Of a stretch of DNA of 22,598 nucleotides, positions 906-18,041 are shown one piece after another. The stretch comes from Myxococcota bacterium (GTDB taxonomy: Bacteria > Myxococcota_C > UBA6777). Where the stretch lies: positions 1 to 22,598 of the forward strand of contig JAKLKB010000160.1 in the NCBI GenBank assembly GCA_023150835.1, in the 5' to 3' direction. The position numbers and the translations under genes are program-made. Position 1 is the first letter of the stretch. Each line of letters opens with the position of its first letter. A model generated the notes under the pieces. That model ran no database searches and was not told the origin of the DNA. It saw only the letters and a program-made list of their open reading frames with translations.

Positions 906-2300
906 TTATTCGAACGGTGAAAGAATTTGGCGTGAGCGAGTATGGGGATCTTGTTGTGGGAGCGGAGGAGGCGGCAAGCGTCGGAAGGTCGTGGGTTGTG
1001 TGGTGGGTCGCGAAGGAAGCGTGTGGGTGTTGAGATGAGCGGTTTGTGTGGTAGGTGGGGTATCGAGCCGATGGGGTCGTGGCGGAGGAGGCGGAGCAAG
1101 CCGATGTTGTAGGCGTTGGAGCAGCCGTTGGAATCGTGCGCGAGCGATGCGATCTTGGGCGGAGCGATGGGCTTGTTGGGCGTGTTGGAGGGCTGCTTGG
1201 AGATCGCCGCGTTCTTCTTTGGCGAGGGCAAGGGTTTCGAGCATATAAGGGCGGAGGCTTGGGAGGTTGGTGTCGGTGGGCGGGGTGGCGGGCTGGAGTT
1301 GGAGTGCGCGGGTGGCGTATTGTTCGGCGCGTAGGGCATCTTGCGCAGAGACCTTGGGTTGGAGCAGCAAGGCGCGTGCGGTGTGATCGAGCAGTTCGGG
1401 GTCTTTGGGGGCGATGCGTAGGGCCTGTTCGTAGGCTTGCAAAGCGCGGGGATACAAGCGTTGATGCGTGTACACGTCGCCAAGCAACAGCCACATCTTC
1501 CATTGCGAAGCGAAGTATTTTTGCATATTTTGTTCGATACTTGCGATCTGATCGGACTTTTGGTGTCGCAGATAAAGTCGCAACGCAAGCTCGTAGGGCA
1601 AAGGCCACGGTGGGTCGGCTTGGATGGCGGCTTCGGCTTCTTGGATGGCTTGGGTGTGTTGTTCTTGGCGCAAGAGGCAAAAAGCCGTCTTGTAGCGCAG
1701 CATCGCACGTCGACGAGCGTGTTGTTTGGGGGGGTTGTTGGCTTGGATGGCTTGGTGGGCTTTGCGATAGGCTTGGATCGCTCGATCACAGCGGCCTTCT
1801 TGGAGTGCTTGATCGCCCGCTCGTTCTGCCGAAGCTCCCGGAGCAAACCAACGCTCCAACCAAGGCACATTGCGCACAAGATACGGATAGATCGCAAAGC
1901 CAAGAATGAAGACAAACAACAAGATCTGTAACCAAAGTTTGGGAGAGCGCGGTGTTGCCGTTGCCGCTGGAGGAAACGCAAATTCGTCTTCTTGGGCAGC
2001 CTGTTCGGGGCGTTGCGATTCTTTTGAAACAGCGGTCTGTTCGGTGCTTACGGCTTTTTCGGCACTTGTGACTGTTTTGGCCTTCGCCTCTTCCTTTTGT
2101 GGTGTAGTCTTGATCTTTTCGGAACCAGCGGACTTTGGTGTGATCTTGTTCTTTTCGGAACCAGCAGACTTTGGTGTGATCTTGTTCTTTTCGGAACCAG
2201 CAGATTTTTCAGGGATAATGGATTTGCTTTGGGTGGTGACTTTGCTTGGGGCGGTGGATTTTTTGGAAGGCGTTTTGTTGTTTTTCTTGGATGAGTTCAA
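906..2300 (-). CDS. TPR-like membrane protein with repeat-bearing N-terminal tail
   Basis: Protein of 464 aa. Residues 1-120 form a Lys/Ser/Glu-rich, disordered-looking cytoplasmic tail containing a 12-residue repeat (KSAGSEKNKITP, two full copies and a partial). One membrane segment follows at about 121-142 (WLQILLFVFILGFAIYPYLV). The next 240 residues are Ala/Gln/Arg-rich helical hairpins that look like TPRs, for example around GDVYTHQRLYPRALQAYEQA. The C-terminal 60 residues are Pro/Thr/His/Arg-rich low complexity. I chose the TTG at 2300 because AGAAAGGA sits 7 nt upstream; the frame stays open to a TTG at 2342 without such a site. It is probably an assembly or scaffold protein of the inner membrane. 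It sits between gcvP and a second TPR membrane gene on the same strand, with gaps of about 150 bp, so cotranscription is possible but not shown. Confidence 0.78.
   Translation of the reverse strand: MNSSKKNNKTPSKKSTAPSKVTTQSKSIIPEKSAGSEKNKITPKSAGSEKNKITPKSAGSEKIKTTPQKEEAKAKTVTSAEKAVSTEQTAVSKESQRPEQAAQEDEFAFPPAATATPRSPKLWLQILLFVFILGFAIYPYLVRNVPWLERWFAPGASAERAGDQALQEGRCDRAIQAYRKAHQAIQANNPPKQHARRRAMLRYKTAFCLLRQEQHTQAIQEAEAAIQADPPWPLPYELALRLYLRHQKSDQIASIEQNMQKYFASQWKMWLLLGDVYTHQRLYPRALQAYEQALRIAPKDPELLDHTARALLLQPKVSAQDALRAEQYATRALQLQPATPPTDTNLPSLRPYMLETLALAKEERGDLQAALQHAQQAHRSAQDRIARARFQRLLQRLQHRLAPPPPPRPHRLDTPPTTQTAHLNTHTLPSRPTTQPTTFRRLPPPPLPQQDPHTRSRQILSPFE
2116..2209. repeat. 36-bp in-frame tandem repeat
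   Basis: Two complete 36-bp units (2116-2151 and 2152-2187) and a partial third (2188-2209) differ by about one base. A more diverged partial precedes them. The unit length is a multiple of three and encodes the 12-residue KSAGSEKNKITP repeat of the TPR-like membrane protein. Confidence 0.9.
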
Positions 2301-2452
2301 TGGGTGGTCCTTTCTTGCGAGGCGGAGCGTATTGGAATGCAAGCGGTATAGCTCAGATCCGCACGAAAGAAAATAGGAGCGACGTGGCGTGCAGAGGTGG
2401 GGCTTATGCTTGGAAAAAGGCGTGTTTTTGAAGAGAGGATGAAGAGGGGAGA

Positions 2453-10677: not shown

Positions 10678-10812
10678 TGAAAAAACGCCAAAAAAAGCCG
10701 CGTTCGCGACGCTTCAAGCGACATCTTTGTTGTTTTGAAAAACAGCGATCGTTTCGACAATACGGGGTCAAGGGGCGGCAGTCTATGGCGGGGTCTGGGG
10801 CAGCGCCCCATC
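10678..10812 (+). repeat. dispersed repeat, diverged copy
   Basis: This stretch matches the reverse complement of 13651-13793 in a mosaic way: the CAAAAAA run, CTTCAAGCG, TTTGAAAAAC, CGGGGTCAAGGGGC and a terminal GGGGCAGCGCCCCAT hairpin where the other copy has GGGGTGGAACCCCAT. The wider gap 10593-10981 contains no other gene; 10813-10970 shows nothing I can name. Confidence 0.65.
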
Positions 10813-12307: not shown

Positions 12308-13474
12308 ATGCGGTTGTGGAGTGTGTTTCGCAAAAGTATTCGTGAACAATGGCGGGAGCCTTGGGGGTTGGCGCTGACGTTGGGAACCGCTCCGTTTTTT
12401 GTGTTGCTGTATTGGCTGTTTTTTGGCGGAACGACGCCTTTTGTGGTCTTGGTCTTTGAAGAAGGCCGCCCACCGCTCAAGACCGCTACCAAAGAAGAAG
12501 AAGTCTCCGCGGGAGGGCAGTTGGTGAAGCTGTTGGCTTCGCTGAAACGCCCGCGTGGTGGGGCTTTGATGAAGGCGAGTTTGGTGGAGGGGCTTGCAGA
12601 AGCCAAACAGCGACTGACGCGCAGACAAGCGGCGGCTTTGGTGGTGGTGCCTCGGGGATTTTTGCAAGCCTTGGCAGGAGCCGATGCCAACGCCAAGAAA
12701 CCAAAACTTCGGATAGTTGGGGACTTTACCGATCCGCAGTATGCGTCTGTGGCGGTGGTTTTGAATGCCGCGTTGCAGCGTTTTGTCCAAGAAGCGACCA
12801 ACACGATGATGCCTGTCGAGGTGGCGAAAGAAGCGATCGCTCGTTCCGATCAGCGGACGGAGTTTGAGAACTACGTCCCGGGTTTGCTGATCTTGTCGGT
12901 GGTGATGCTGATCTTTTCGGCGGCGATGACCATCACGTACGAGGTGGAGATGGGGACGTTACGACGTTTGCAGTTGTCCAATCTATCGGCCTTTTCGTTG
13001 TTGTTGGGGATCGCGCTGTCGCAGGTGTTGTTGGGGACGCTGTCGGTGTTGTTGACTTTTGGGATGGCGGCGATCTTGGGCTTTCGCAGCCAAGGCCCGC
13101 TGTGGGTGGCGATCTTGGTGGGGGCTGTGACAAGCTTGTCGATTATGGGCGTGGCGATGATCGTGGCGTCTTTTGCGCGGACGGTCACGGAAGCCTTCTT
13201 GTTATCGAACTTTCCGCTATTTTTGCTGATGTTCTTTTCGGGGGCGATCCGACCGATCCCCAAAGTGCCGCTGGGGGTGATCGGGGGGCGAGAGATCGGG
13301 TTGTACGACCTTTTACAGCCCACGCATGCGGTGGTGGCGCTCAATAAAGTGCTGACTTTTGGCGCGTCCTTGCGGGATGTGGTCTTTGAGGTGATTGCGG
13401 TGCTGGTGTTGGCGGTGCTGTACTTTGGGGTGGGGGTTGCGTTGTTTCATCTGCGTCGGATGCGTATTGCCTGA
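12308..13474 (+). CDS. ABC-2 type exporter, permease
   Basis: Membrane subunit of 388 aa of the ABC-2 superfamily, partner of the ATPase immediately upstream. TM1 is at about 20-40, then a large extracytoplasmic domain (41-187) typical of the YhgE/DrrB-like long-loop type. Further membrane segments follow at about 190-212, 229-251, 265-288, 296-313 and 357-381. The sequence EMGTLRRLQLSNLS after TM2 is the usual amphipathic coupling region. The start is ATG 12308 with AAAGGGG 6 nt upstream. The protein ends 23 bp before the left copy of the 151-bp inverted repeat, whose strong hairpin may end or protect the operon transcript. Confidence 0.94.
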   Translation: MRLWSVFRKSIREQWREPWGLALTLGTAPFFVLLYWLFFGGTTPFVVLVFEEGRPPLKTATKEEEVSAGGQLVKLLASLKRPRGGALMKASLVEGLAEAKQRLTRRQAAALVVVPRGFLQALAGADANAKKPKLRIVGDFTDPQYASVAVVLNAALQRFVQEATNTMMPVEVAKEAIARSDQRTEFENYVPGLLILSVVMLIFSAAMTITYEVEMGTLRRLQLSNLSAFSLLLGIALSQVLLGTLSVLLTFGMAAILGFRSQGPLWVAILVGAVTSLSIMGVAMIVASFARTVTEAFLLSNFPLFLLMFFSGAIRPIPKVPLGVIGGREIGLYDLLQPTHAVVALNKVLTFGASLRDVVFEVIAVLVLAVLYFGVGVALFHLRRMRIA

Positions 13475-13497
13475 ATGCCTCATCGTGTTTTATTTTT

Positions 13498-13648
13498 GTG
13501 GGGTTCCACCCCATAGGCGTTAGGTTAAGCGCTTGTTGGCCCCCCCCACCCCAGCCCTCCCCCGTGAACAGGGGAGGGAGCGAAAGTCGGAAGCAGCGGG
13601 GATTTTGTTTTTTCATGACGCACGCTGTTTGCACGAGACGCAGACGCT
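13498..13648 (+). repeat. 151-bp inverted repeat, left copy
   Basis: Matches the reverse complement of 15990-16140 with two substitutions and two single-base indels in C runs, about 97% identity. It begins with GTGGGGTTCCACCCCATA and contains the perfect hairpin CCCTCCCC (13555-13562) / GGGGAGGG (13571-13578) around CGTGAACA. There is no reading frame of note. The near identity indicates recent copying or gene conversion. Confidence 0.95.
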
Positions 13649-13649
13649 C

Positions 13650-13795
13650 GTATGGGGTTCCACCCCACACCCCGCAAGGGACCGATGGCCCCTTGACCCC
13701 GCGTTGGCGGGACGCGGCTAGGTTTTTCAAACAAACAGCGGCACCGCTTGAAGTGGCACGAACACGGGGTTTTTTGCTCGCTGTTTTTTTCGGAG
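13650..13795 (-). repeat. dispersed repeat, second type
   Basis: On the minus strand this runs from a CGAAAAAAAC end to a GGGGTGGAACCCCATA hairpin end. It is a relative of 10678-10812, and its last about 30 bases recur near 15849-15885. It adjoins the left 151-bp repeat directly, making a composite repeat block in the 439-bp gap after the ABC permease. Confidence 0.7.
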
Positions 13796-13899
13796 GGATC
13801 TCGGCGGATTCGTGGGGCGTTTGGATGGATTGTGTGAGCGTATGAGATCTCTGCGGAGCTGTGGGGCGTTTGGATGACTTGGATGACTTGTGTGAGCGT
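13796..13899. repeat. imperfect tandem duplication of about 49 bp
   Basis: Two units share GTGGGGCGTTTGGATG (13812-13827 and 13861-13876) followed by TTGTGTGAGCGT (13830-13841 and 13888-13899). A small GGATGACTT duplication lies inside the second unit. The array lies just ahead of the ribosome binding site (13902-13908) of the next gene and so may be in its leader. Confidence 0.75.
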
Positions 13900-13913
13900 G
13901 AAGGGAGGTGCCG

Positions 13914-14498
13914 ATGTCTGTGTATCCGTCTTTTGTGGAATATCAACGGCTTTTGCATACGCGTCTTTTGGAGTTGACTCCGCCGCTTTGCGCGTATCTT
14001 CGGGCATTACGGGAGCGCCCGTTTCATCCCGAGGTGGATCTTTTGCAATTTGAGATGATGCACGAAGATGCTGCGGAGGTATTTCCGATCTTTTTGTTGA
14101 CGAAACGCCGATGTGACGGGGTGGATCGTTATTGTTCGGGCCAGTCATACGATTATCGGCGGGAGTGGTTTGAAGATCGAGAGCGGTCGGATGTGTTTTC
14201 AGGGTTTGAGCGGTTGTTGCAAGAGCCGCTGATGGTGGGCGAGCTGGTGCGATATTTTCACCTTGAGCACGAAGAGACCGCTCCCGACGAAGATTACGAT
14301 GAGATGATCGAGCGATGCGATATCTATTTCTTTGAAGCGGTGGGGCCTTGGTTTTATGCGTTGTGGAAACAAGAGATCGGTGCGGATCTGCCCATCTCAT
14401 CGTATTTTTTGCAGATGGGCGATGATGCGGGTGGGAACGTCTTTGATCTGCGTACACAGCAAGAGATCCCTTGGGAACAGATGTACAAACAAGAGTGA
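13914..14498 (+). CDS. uncharacterised acidic protein in repeat-flanked cassette
   Basis: Protein of 194 aa; I recognise no family. It is soluble, acidic and aromatic-rich, with no signal peptide or membrane segment. Two clusters stand out: CDGVDRYCSGQSYDYRREWF (68-87) and an acidic EHEETAPDEDYDEMIERCD stretch (118-136), followed by YFFEAVGPWFYALWKQE and a GDDAGGN turn. Four cysteines are scattered. The start is ATG 13914 with AGGGAGG 5 nt upstream; an in-frame GTG at 13908 overlaps that site and is unlikely. It is convergent with the next unknown gene (57-bp gap), and both lie between the 151-bp inverted repeats. A SUKH/SMI1-like fold is a passing thought from size and composition, without motif support. 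Confidence 0.75.
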   Translation: MSVYPSFVEYQRLLHTRLLELTPPLCAYLRALRERPFHPEVDLLQFEMMHEDAAEVFPIFLLTKRRCDGVDRYCSGQSYDYRREWFEDRERSDVFSGFERLLQEPLMVGELVRYFHLEHEETAPDEDYDEMIERCDIYFFEAVGPWFYALWKQEIGADLPISSYFLQMGDDAGGNVFDLRTQQEIPWEQMYKQE

Positions 14499-14555
14499 TC
14501 AAGCGGATCTGGGGCGCTCGTCTTAACTTTGCCCTAGGATCAAAGCTCAAAGGAT

Positions 14556-15341
14556 TCAGTCGTTTGTGTGGGTCGGATCTTCTGGAGGGTGGGGCGTGGA
14601 GAGGTTGGGATCGTCGATGGGTTGGGTGGGGGTTTCTTCGCCTCGGCGTCGGCGGACGGTTGGGCGCACTCGATCGGCGAGTTCTCGGAGTCCTGCGATG
14701 CGGTAAAGACCCTCAAGAGCAGAGGCCGTTCCTTGATAGACGTCCCCCCATCGTTCCAGAACACGGTCGCGTTCGATGAGAGCGTCTTGGAGTTCGCGTT
14801 GCTCTCGTTTGACGTCTTCGACGCCTCTTTCCAGTCGTTCAGCTTTTTGCAAAAGAAACTTGCCCAAGGCGTGTGGGTGAACTTCTTGACCGAAAGCGTC
14901 TGTGTAGGTCTCTGCTGCATCACAGAGCAAAGTTCCTGTGTGTTTGAGGGTATTCGCGAGTTGGTGGGGCGTGTCTACTTGCGTTGTGGGAATGCCGTAT
15001 TTTTTGAGCAGGTCTTGTTTGTGGGGGATGCTGCGGAGCCGATAGGCGGCGTTGTTGAGAGCTTCTTGCCCCTCGATGGTGGCTTGATCGCGCTCTTGAC
15101 GGTATCCATCGTCGTCTGCTTGTTCTTTCACGTAGGCCATCTCAAGCTGTTCGAGTGCCTTTGTTTGCGCATCCAAAGCTGTTGCAAGCGCGCCTAAAAA
15201 CTGAGATATCTGTGCGGCACTTAACCCGTGAAGCGTTGAAGCTAGAATGTCCGCAACTTTGGTTTTATGGACCTGAACTGAACTCACAACATGAAGGCTG
15301 TTTTTCTTTTGACTTTCGACGCGAGCGCTCATCTGTGCCAT
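14556..15341 (-). CDS. uncharacterised helical protein in repeat-flanked cassette
   Basis: Protein of 261 aa; I recognise no family. It is almost all predicted helix, with likely coiled coils at about 45-105 and 160-205 (AERLERGVEDVKREQRELQD). An arginine cluster (228-233) and a Pro/Asp/Thr/His-rich tail (236-261) end it. No membrane segment or signal peptide. I chose ATG 15341 (GAGG about 9 nt upstream) because a good minus-strand promoter lies at 15447-15474. The frame stays open to 15956, but that extension is Cys/His/Pro/Lys-rich and unlike protein. ATG 15332 is an alternative. It is convergent with the acidic unknown gene inside the inverted-repeat cassette. A structural or partner role is possible; nothing stronger can be said. 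Confidence 0.72.
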   Translation of the reverse strand: MAQMSARVESQKKNSLHVVSSVQVHKTKVADILASTLHGLSAAQISQFLGALATALDAQTKALEQLEMAYVKEQADDDGYRQERDQATIEGQEALNNAAYRLRSIPHKQDLLKKYGIPTTQVDTPHQLANTLKHTGTLLCDAAETYTDAFGQEVHPHALGKFLLQKAERLERGVEDVKREQRELQDALIERDRVLERWGDVYQGTASALEGLYRIAGLRELADRVRPTVRRRRGEETPTQPIDDPNLSTPHPPEDPTHTND

Positions 15342-15848
15342 CGGCTTTGCCTCTGTGGGGGGTGATGGTGCGGTGCAAAAGTCACTTGAAACTTCACCGC
15401 ATCTTGTTTTGTTCGATTTCGCAAGTCCTATTTCAACAACAAACGCAGTATACCACCCACATCGCAAAATGCAAAAGGGCCAAAAGGGTTTCGCGGTTTT
15501 GTGGGGCTGCGGTCCACAAAACAGATCCACAAGCCATTCGTTTGGGAACAAGATATCGTGCGTTTGGAGGGTCTGTCGGCGCGTGGGAAACGCAGCCCGA
15601 ATACAAGCCGAGCCTTTTTTGCAAAGGGAAGGCTGATCGATGCTGGAGAAGATCAGTGGTGAGCGGAAGTGGACGTTGTTCTGGATCGGAAAATGCGTTT
15701 TCCAAGCGCAGCAATGTCGGGATGAACCTGTTTTGTGTTTTGCTTTGTTGGTGTCCTTGGGAAAGCTTGTTGGGGGCGCGTGGATGTGTTTCCCGTGTTG
15801 TGATGCTTTTTTGTGAAGGGGAGGTTTGGGTTTGCGCAGCCATAGGAT
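15342..15848. other. gene-free stretch upstream of helical unknown gene
   Basis: About 500 bp without a credible gene. Frames are open on both strands but have Cys/Trp/His-heavy translations typical of chance reading. It holds the predicted promoter and a perfect hairpin, TTTTGTGG (15497-15504) with CCACAAAA (15514-15521). Otherwise I see nothing in it. Confidence 0.6.
15447..15474 (-). promoter_or_regulatory. sigma-70-like promoter for helical unknown gene
   Basis: On the minus strand TTGCAT (15474-15469) and TATACT (15452-15447) are 16 bp apart. Transcription would begin near 15440, giving a leader of about 100 nt before the ATG at 15341. Confidence 0.5.
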
Positions 15849-15975
15849 ATCCCCGTGCGGGGTGTGGGGTGGAACCCCATAGGCGTTAGGTGAAGGTGGA
15901 AACACCGGATAGTCTAGCCTGATCGCCTTTTCTTTTGCTCGCCCCCCCCCCCTCAATCCCCCCGTGAACGGGGGG
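15849..15975 (+). repeat. variant dispersed repeat, mosaic copy
   Basis: It starts with a B-type end (GCGGGGTGTGGGGTGGAACC, 15860-15879), then the CCCATAGGCGTTAGGT start of the 151-bp element (15879-15894). A different middle follows, then a C-rich run and the hairpin CCCCCC (15958-15963) / GGGGGG (15970-15975) around GTGAAC. It is thus a patchwork of the two repeat types and abuts the right 151-bp copy in opposite orientation. Confidence 0.65.
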
Positions 15976-15989
15976 AAGTTGGAACGGGC

Positions 15990-16140
15990 AGCGTCTGCGT
16001 CTCGTGCAAACAGCGTGCGTCATGAAAAAACAAAATCCCCGCTGCTTCCGACTTTCGCTCCCTCCCCTGTTCACGGGGGAGGGGCTGGGGTGGGGGGGCC
16101 AACAAGCGCTTAACCTAGCGCGTATGGGGTGGAACCCCAC
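15990..16140 (-). repeat. 151-bp inverted repeat, right copy
   Basis: Reverse-complement partner of 13498-13648 (four small differences), with the same CCCTCCCC/GGGGAGGG hairpin. The two copies enclose 2,341 bp holding the two convergent unknown genes. Confidence 0.95.
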
Positions 16141-16145
16141 AACGT

Positions 16146-16249
16146 CTATCGGAGGGCGGGTTTGTGTCCCAGCGTATCTGGACTACGTGATGGCGCGGTG
16201 AAGCGGCGTCCCGCAAACCTATCGGGGGGCGGGTTTGTGGGGGAGCGTA
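16146..16249. repeat. duplicated 3' end of the GT-C-like gene
   Basis: CTATCGGAGGGCGGGTTTGTG plus a following AGCGTA (16146-16176) recurs, slightly changed, at 16219-16249, a shift of 73 bp. The second copy contains the stop codon and last codons of the GT-C-like gene. The first lies 5 bp from the outer edge of the right 151-bp repeat, which suggests a rearrangement at this boundary. CCCGCAAACC (16210-16219) and GGTTTGTGGG (16232-16241) can also form a hairpin across the stop codon. Confidence 0.7.
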
Positions 16250-17790
16250 GGATGAGAGGTGGGGGTGGATATCTCGAAGATCTTGGTGTTGGAGTCGGCG
16301 TAAACTTCTTTGACGAGTGGATCGAGGGAGAGTTGTTGGGCGAGTGGCGCGTCGCCAGCGGCGGCAAACAACACGACATAGCGAGCGCGAAAGAGGGTGC
16401 GGATCCACCGAGCGGGATCGTGCGAGCGTCCTTGGTTAATGGTCTGATAATCTTGAAACAGCCGAGGCTTCCATCCAGCAAGGAACAGCGGGCTGAGACC
16501 TGCGATGTAGTGGTTGTGTGTGTTGTGGAAGAAGAGGTAAGAAAAGCCAGCCCAATCGGTATGGTAGACGATCGCGCCTGCGGGGGTGTTGGCTTTGAGC
16601 CAACGGGAAGCGTCTTGGGCGATATCGGAGCGGATCTCGAAAGCGTATCGGTGGAGGTCTTGGTGCTTTTTGACGCCAAACCACAGAAACGAAAGACACA
16701 AAAGGCCCAGACACAGCACAACGATTCGGGCCTTGGCTTTGGAAGCCAAGAAGGGCAGGGACTCCGCATTCCACCGCTGCACGACGGTGGCGTCAAACAG
16801 GCGCGCTCCAAGCAACACAGCAAACGCGACTCCATATTCTAACATCCGCTCCGCACGCAAAGAGACCGCCCATAGCGCCAACGCCCCCACAAGCAAGACG
16901 CCGATATCACGAGGCCAATGCTTTCTTTGCGAAAGCAATACAAGAGGCAACACAAGGCCAAGCAAAAAGGCAGGGTAATTTCTTTGCCAAAGTAGAGCGA
17001 GTGTGGTTCCGCGCCACTCGGGGATCAGCGGGATATCGGCGAGGTGCTGGCTTGGGAAGGCCGAAGAGAAATGAAACGCAAAAAAGGAAAAGGTGTCTGG
17101 TGCAAAAGGATGCAGCGCCAAACCAAAGAAGATCCCGCCTGTCGTGTAAAGCAGCGGGCGCCATTCCCACACACCTTCTTGCCACCGTCCCCAAGCCACC
17201 GCGACCATCGCCATCGGTACAAGCGCGATGGCGGTTTGATAAGTCCAGATGTAGGCAAAAGCCACCCCAAACAACAGACGGTGATGCTTTCGCTCCAAGC
17301 ACCACAAAGCCAACAACAAAAAGATCAAAGACAACGATATCGAGCGCGGCATCGAGATACGGAACAGAAAGAAATCCGACGCCAACAACAGCACGATCCC
17401 ATACACCCATGCAAAGCGCACGCGATGGGCGATCAGGTAAAGTACACAAGCGGAAAGGGCGATCGTTCCGAAGAAAACCGCAGAGAGCTTCATCCCAAAG
17501 AGCAGATCGCCTCCCGCAAACGGCATCAAGAGCAGATGGTAAAGAAAGTGATGATCGGCCCAAGTGTCCTTTGCGATGGAGAATTGCATCCACGGGAAAT
17601 CTGTAAACAGGCCTTTTTGTCGATAAAGCCAAGCGTATCGGATGTGATACATACCGTCGACGGAGTGTAGCGTGTGGTGCGAAAAAAGATGCACAGACAA
17701 GACGATGGCGTTGAGGATGGTGATGCCGATCAATCCGAGAAATGCTTGACTTCGAGAGAGGGCGGTGTTGTGTTGGTGGAGGTGTGTCAT
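16219..17790 (-). CDS. GT-C-like polytopic membrane protein
   Basis: Protein of 523 aa with roughly ten membrane segments and a soluble C-terminal domain (about 395-523). The architecture fits GT-C glycosyltransferases that move sugars from lipid carriers. After TM1 comes a loop with D45 and H49 (SVDGMYHIRYAW) and then WADHHFLYH (D79, H80, H81), the places where GT-C enzymes carry catalytic Asp and acidic/His pairs. The C-terminal part (AGAIVYHTDWAGFSYLFFHN) lies outside the membrane. I prefer ATG 17790; an in-frame GTG at 17838 adds 16 residues, and neither has a clear ribosome binding site. It is divergent from the YfhO-like gene, which suggests a shared role in surface polysaccharide or glycolipid. 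The family is inferred from topology and motifs, not certain. Confidence 0.85.
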   Translation of the reverse strand: MTHLHQHNTALSRSQAFLGLIGITILNAIVLSVHLFSHHTLHSVDGMYHIRYAWLYRQKGLFTDFPWMQFSIAKDTWADHHFLYHLLLMPFAGGDLLFGMKLSAVFFGTIALSACVLYLIAHRVRFAWVYGIVLLLASDFFLFRISMPRSISLSLIFLLLALWCLERKHHRLLFGVAFAYIWTYQTAIALVPMAMVAVAWGRWQEGVWEWRPLLYTTGGIFFGLALHPFAPDTFSFFAFHFSSAFPSQHLADIPLIPEWRGTTLALLWQRNYPAFLLGLVLPLVLLSQRKHWPRDIGVLLVGALALWAVSLRAERMLEYGVAFAVLLGARLFDATVVQRWNAESLPFLASKAKARIVVLCLGLLCLSFLWFGVKKHQDLHRYAFEIRSDIAQDASRWLKANTPAGAIVYHTDWAGFSYLFFHNTHNHYIAGLSPLFLAGWKPRLFQDYQTINQGRSHDPARWIRTLFRARYVVLFAAAGDAPLAQQLSLDPLVKEVYADSNTKIFEISTPTSHPTLPHKPAPR

Positions 17791-17909
17791 GTGCGTATGA
17801 GCCGTCGTGATGGATGGAGAGCCGATGCAGATGGCCACGAGGTTGGCTTGTGCTTGCCAAGGGGTTGGCTTGTGATCGCGAGGACCAGCCGTGAGGATGT
17901 AGGCTCGTC

Positions 17910-18007
17910 AAGGCGTGCATGATCGAGGACTAGCCGTGATGGTGAGGGATTGTCAAGGCGTGCATGATCGAGGACTAGCCGTGATGGCGAGGGATTGTCA
18001 AGGCGTG
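17910..18007. repeat. 45-bp tandem repeat between divergent membrane genes
   Basis: Two full units (17910-17954 and 17955-17999) differ at one base, with an 8-base partial after them and a diverged partial before (about 17874-17909). The array fills most of the gap between the two divergent start codons, so it must overlap one or both promoters. A long minus-strand frame across it is a product of the unit being a multiple of three. Confidence 0.93.
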
Positions 18008-18041
18008 GTGTTCTGTGGTGTCGAACGATCGGGGTGTTTGG

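Follow-up and report, generated by a model that had tools for sequence, protein, structure and literature searches.

A high-copy MITE-like element inserted in a REP-like palindrome accounts for an apparent two-gene cassette in a Myxococcota genome

Two convergent genes that match no known family lie between near-identical inverted repeats in a 22,598-nucleotide contig of a Myxococcota bacterium, and the question raised by this locus is whether repeats and genes form one unit. The contig was analysed at its full length (the window); it is contig C105 of the host genome G000, a draft of 7.56 Mb in 239 contigs and 93% complete. A sequence-only reading had reported the repeats and the two open reading frames, and both are present as described. 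The arms (13496-13648 and 15990-16142) are 153 nt long, 95% complementary in an ungapped comparison and separated by a spacer of 2341 nt. A gapped alignment of the two arms gives 150 identical positions out of 154, with two substitutions and two indels. The frames occupy 13914-14498 on the plus strand (gene 1) and 14556-15341 on the minus strand (gene 2). The flanking genes are an ABC-2 permease gene (12308-13474, plus strand) and a gene for a multi-TM GT-C-like protein (16219-17838, minus strand). Both are syntenic in KLAP109 (G001), a Myxococcota bacterium MAG of the same genus and the nearest relative compared. A search of positions 13200-16500 against Rfam gave no match. Two tandem repeats were also observed in the window. 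Three 45-bp units stand at 17879-18013, where the GT-C-like and YfhO-like genes diverge from each other, and are fewer in the G001 counterpart; three 36-bp units at 2100-2207 form a 12-residue repeat inside the frame 906-2342 (minus strand).

The repeats are almost certainly two independent insertions of one non-autonomous MITE-like family, and the genes between them are bystanders. A 37-nt core of the repeat occurs in 135 copies in the host genome (up to three mismatches), compared with 0 for the reversed control. The left arm was found in at least 41 places in the host genome (40 of 288 candidates were scored). Many host contigs start or finish inside the repeat, as expected, since assemblers stall on such a repeat. 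With 135 randomly placed copies, about 5.7 neighbouring pairs as close as the one in the window are expected, about 2.9 of them inverted, and the pairing therefore needs no special explanation. A cassette that is striking in the raw sequence is thus explicable by repeat density alone.

Alignment of the copies showed the element to be longer than the window arms, which cover only what the copies have in common. The 151-bp ends previously taken as the repeat unit were wrongly delimited: the true units are 15875-16129 (255 bp) and 13509-13657 (149 bp), and the 151 bp are the portion common to both copies plus the target palindrome. The element is bounded by terminal inverted repeats (TIRs) of 21 bp, CCCCATASGCGYYWDGTKAAG, starting with CCCCATA. 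The host genome holds 254 TIR ends with at most one mismatch to a 22-nt pattern. Complete copies are mostly 146-283 bp long. The main element, of about 250 bp, is without coding capacity, and 255 bp is too short for a transposase. Single-strand folding is strong (z -7.2 for the plus strand, folded as RNA), with a predicted stem-loop. One subtype in G001 reaches 573 bp (L175:1025-1598 and L176:1215-1787) and has the same ends as the main element. It contains the internal palindromes GGGCGGTTCCCGAACCGCCC and GGGCGGTTCGCGAACCGCCC and no recognisable gene; its longest open frames, of about 150 codons, matched no family.

The 5-bp target duplication is perfect in 22 of the 31 complete copies extracted from stretches of the genomes, G001 included, and GGGG and CCCC enclose most of these. 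Mis-pairing of TIRs in G001 accounts for two of the nine other copies, and there the real outer flanks agree (CGCTG). In the remaining seven pairs the 5-bp flanks are mismatched or one base off, which needs recombination, mutation or misassembly. Unmatched flanks were seen at L124:1279-1522, L014:1512-1758, L117:1501-1746 and L141:15744-16026, those of L117 and L141 being reverse complements of each other (GCAGC/GCTGC). Such non-matching flanks suggest recombination between copies, inversion, or misassembly. Among 27 sampled host copies, 24 are clear of open reading frames of 200 or more residues. The three overlaps comprise one at a contig end and two in the window, where the copies run into a frame antisense to gene 1 and an upstream extension of gene 2; both window overlaps were judged spurious. 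The gaps around the sampled host copies are of mixed type, without special preference for convergent ones. By its short length, TIRs, duplication of constant length, lack of a transposase and high number of dispersed, mostly intergenic copies, the element family is a MITE. A literature search found no paper describing it, and it combines behaviours that are already known.

The place of insertion follows a narrow rule. Copies have GGGG-N5 as their left flank and N5-CCCC as their right flank, where N5 is the duplicated 5 bp, and 194 TIR ends in the host have the context GGGG-N5-TIR (one mismatch allowed). The intact target palindrome reads GTGGGGCAGCGCCCCAC. Its strict unoccupied form, GTGGGG-N5-CCCCAC, was counted 251 times in G000 and 337 times in G001, with 0 for the control; each of three other family members has it only 1-4 times. 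The palindrome is carried by a longer dispersed REP-like repeat; in G001, the flank of a single copy by itself gives dozens of matches. The element thus occupies the axis of a palindrome that is dispersed through the host genome, and insertion is almost exclusively into this GC-rich GGGG-N5-CCCC palindrome, which is genus-specific. Two diverged members of the REP-like host repeat family from which the target palindromes come also occur in opposite orientation at 10730-10776 and 13688-13734 of the window (70% identity). Since the repeat is an abundant element that chooses palindromes, the two intervening genes are bystanders and not a cassette. The element ends are CCCC...GGGG, and each insertion therefore recreates GGGG-N5-CCCC at both junctions, which predicts back-to-back copies, as found. 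Back-to-back elements with a single shared 5-bp junction lie at L211:135-150, L212:1518-1533 and L111:1517-1532.

The same rule is visible between species. A palindrome on contig C70 of G000 (L157:6919-6931) holds a 247-bp subtype in one orientation; in G001 the orthologous palindrome, on contig C285, is occupied at that very nucleotide by another subtype, oriented the other way (L157:6919-7191 versus L231:2588-2719). Our reading is that one orthologous target was hit twice independently, an apparent parallel insertion; replacement by recombination could instead have given the same arrangement. With what look like parallel insertions at one base in two species, the target rule can be put to the test.

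Each of the two window copies can be described in these terms. The left copy (13509-13657, plus strand, 149 bp) was delimited by element alignment and is internally deleted. It matches element positions 1-140 and then only CGTATGGGG of the far end, so that both termini are kept and about 106 bp of the interior are missing. It lies between an outer (13504-13508) and an inner (13658-13662) copy of the duplication TTCCA. The REP-like host repeat at 13663-13700 (plus strand) provides the GGGG-N5-CCCC palindrome that is its insertion site, and this repeat is uninterrupted in G001. The right copy (15875-16129, minus strand) is of full length, 255 bp; it starts with CCCCATAGGCGTTAGG, ends with TATGGGG and has the TIRs CCCCATA..../....TATGGGG. 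Its duplication is TGGAA, inner at 15870-15874 and outer at 16130-16134.

Comparison with G001 shows the site without the left insertion. Between 7.3 and 20.4 kb the window is collinear with contig C108 of G001, the DNA identity being about 85-95%. The order there is the ABC permease gene, an uninterrupted TGTGGGG-TTCCA-CCCCAC, the orthologue of gene 1, about 205 bp, and the GT-C-like gene. The window reads TGTGGGG-TTCCA-[element]-TTCCA-CCCCAC at the corresponding position, and L103:6313-6327 of G001 is exactly the left element's site in its empty state. Both repeats and gene 2 are absent from the G001 locus. At the position of the right copy the G001 sequence differs, and the empty site is that of the left copy alone. 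Of the possibilities offered by the sequence-only reading, two independent repeat insertions is the one borne out, by the separate 5-bp duplication of each copy and by the left empty site in G001.

These data bear directly on the idea of a composite non-autonomous cassette, in which the inverted copies would carry the 2.3 kb and both genes as a compound transposon. Near-identical inverted copies do flank two genes, and gene 2 is missing from the G001 locus, as such a unit would have it. Nevertheless, gene 1 occupies the same place in G001 without the repeats, the left element alone has its own empty site, and the two elements have a duplication each where a compound unit would have one. With the repeat genome-wide and homologues of the two genes not travelling together, a compound transposon is extremely improbable, and the cassette first proposed for this locus has been abandoned. 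An invertible segment, in which recombination between the copies would flip both genes, was the other unit proposed. Recombination is conceivable in principle between inverted stretches of 150 bp at 97% identity, and the non-matching flanks of some copies elsewhere suggest that recombination between copies takes place. However, the orientation of gene 1 relative to both flanks is identical in G001 and the window, and no recombinase is encoded nearby. Inversion is thereby left very unlikely. The duplications TTCCA and TGGAA are mutual reverse complements, so they cannot report a past inversion.

On the explanation by independent insertions, the genes enclosed by the two copies are ordinary occupants of the gap, and their histories are separate. 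Gene 1 (13914-14498, plus strand) encodes an acidic protein of 194 residues. Its orthologue, conserved at the same locus in G001, has 89% amino acid identity and a dN/dS of about 0.2, and by this comparison gene 1 is a resident of the locus and not part of a cassette. Gene 1 had no match in the genomes G002-G004 or in 36 more distant genomes, nor in Pfam, NCBIfam, PHROGs, PADLOC or PDB sequences. Its structure model is poor (mean pLDDT 42), and therefore no claim is made about its fold.

Gene 2 (14556-15341, minus strand) encodes a protein of 261 residues, a length set by homology to its relatives, that is predicted to be a helical bundle. The model is all-helical (pLDDT 85.5) with an added disordered proline-rich tail. 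Comparison with profile libraries gave only sub-threshold noise, and comparison of the model with viral structures gave no significant match. Relatives were detected in G003 (nine), in G004 (one) and in the host itself (a second copy); the family, with loci at L195, L196, L197, L198, L199 and L204, is expanded in G003. The relatives examined have a helical core in common and unrelated neighbourhoods. Gene 2 belongs to a lineage-specific family of paralogues. G001 has gene 1 without gene 2, and G003 and G004 have relatives of gene 2 without gene 1. The two are therefore not a linked pair, and the earlier suggestion of a two-component system finds no support.

Gene 2 and the right element may have reached the G000 lineage together, by homologous recombination or element-assisted gain, with gene 1 ancestral. 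Both are missing from the 205-bp gap of G001, and paralogues of gene 2 are scattered in relatives. Set against this, the intact 5-bp duplication of the right element is typical of a solitary insertion, loss of gene 2 in G001 is equally possible, and the gap sequences of the two genomes are not alignable. Joint arrival is accordingly regarded as a minor possibility, one that would not conflict with the account preferred for the left element.

Under this explanation, movement of the element would depend, or would once have depended, on a transposase acting in trans from another locus. Under independent insertions, this enzyme would cut the axis of the palindrome, at the host site GTGGGG-N5-CCCCAC, with a 5-bp stagger, and the regeneration of the target at both junctions would permit copies to accumulate back to back. 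Candidates for a parent transposon were sought in several ways. TIR pairs in about 290 kb of host contigs enclosed no transposase-bearing element, and TIRs followed by unusual bases in the host genome led to no parent element. None of the genes for DDE_Tnp_1 or IS1380-type transposases (searched with PF13701 and PF01609) in the 93% complete draft carried the element TIRs, and the host and its relatives yielded no insertion sequence with such ends. Since direct tests covered two transposase families in a draft genome, the missing parent is weak negative evidence. It is conceivable, if rather unlikely, that an undescribed transposase recognises the axis of the GGGG-N5-CCCC cruciform or palindrome, and that the element ends mirror the half-site and so double the targets with each insertion. 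If true, the transposase of the element could belong to an uncatalogued family.

Several known systems resemble the element in part. TIMEs are miniature elements derived from Tn3, with 38-bp TIRs beginning with GGGG and a 5-bp target duplication. The duplication is alike, and the inner TIR end of the present element, GTTAAG, resembles Tn3-family TIRs. Membership in the Tn3-derived TIMEs is ruled out by a TIR of about 21 bp starting with CCCC, not 38 bp starting with GGGG. Bacterial MITEs are typically shorter than 500 bp, have direct repeats on either side of TIRs of about 4-30 bp, and are usually AT-rich and intergenic (PMC10969869). QMITE2, Chunjie, Nezha and MITEAba12 (PMC10969869, PMC3733652) are like the present family, whose main subtype is below 300 bp with TIRs of about 21 bp, and share with it the flanking direct repeats, lack of coding capacity, high copy number, largely intergenic position and strong predicted stem-loop. 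They differ in being AT-rich and lying in AT-rich intergenic DNA, whereas the present element is GC-rich and almost exclusively confined to one palindromic target. The GTAG-23 REPs of Thermomicrobium roseum lie inside CCGSSCC(n3,4)GGSSCGG, a palindrome with hundreds of further copies (PMC3733652), and are likewise small repeats within a GC-rich palindrome abundant in the genome. GTAG-23, however, is GTAG-tagged and belongs to a class of REPs linked to tyrosine transposases, whereas the present element has TIRs and 5-bp duplications, which would point to a DDE-type enzyme.

In its choice of target the element is comparable with the insertion sequences that insert at the axis of REP palindromes: ISPsy8 (3-bp duplication), ISRm22 (6-bp duplication), IS1397, ISKpn1 and IS621 (PMC1525189). 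Unlike these, it is a MITE with a 5-bp duplication for which no transposase-bearing relative was found; like them, it makes a short duplication on entering a dispersed palindrome of the host at its axis. Hybrid copies of ISRm22 with unmatched duplications were attributed to recombination (PMC1525189), and L124 and L014 are similar cases here. The family thus documents a high-copy MITE with near-exclusive insertion in one REP-like palindrome in a Myxococcota lineage. Its parent transposase, if found, would add a palindrome-directed enzyme, and until then the family is a well-resolved example of known behaviour.
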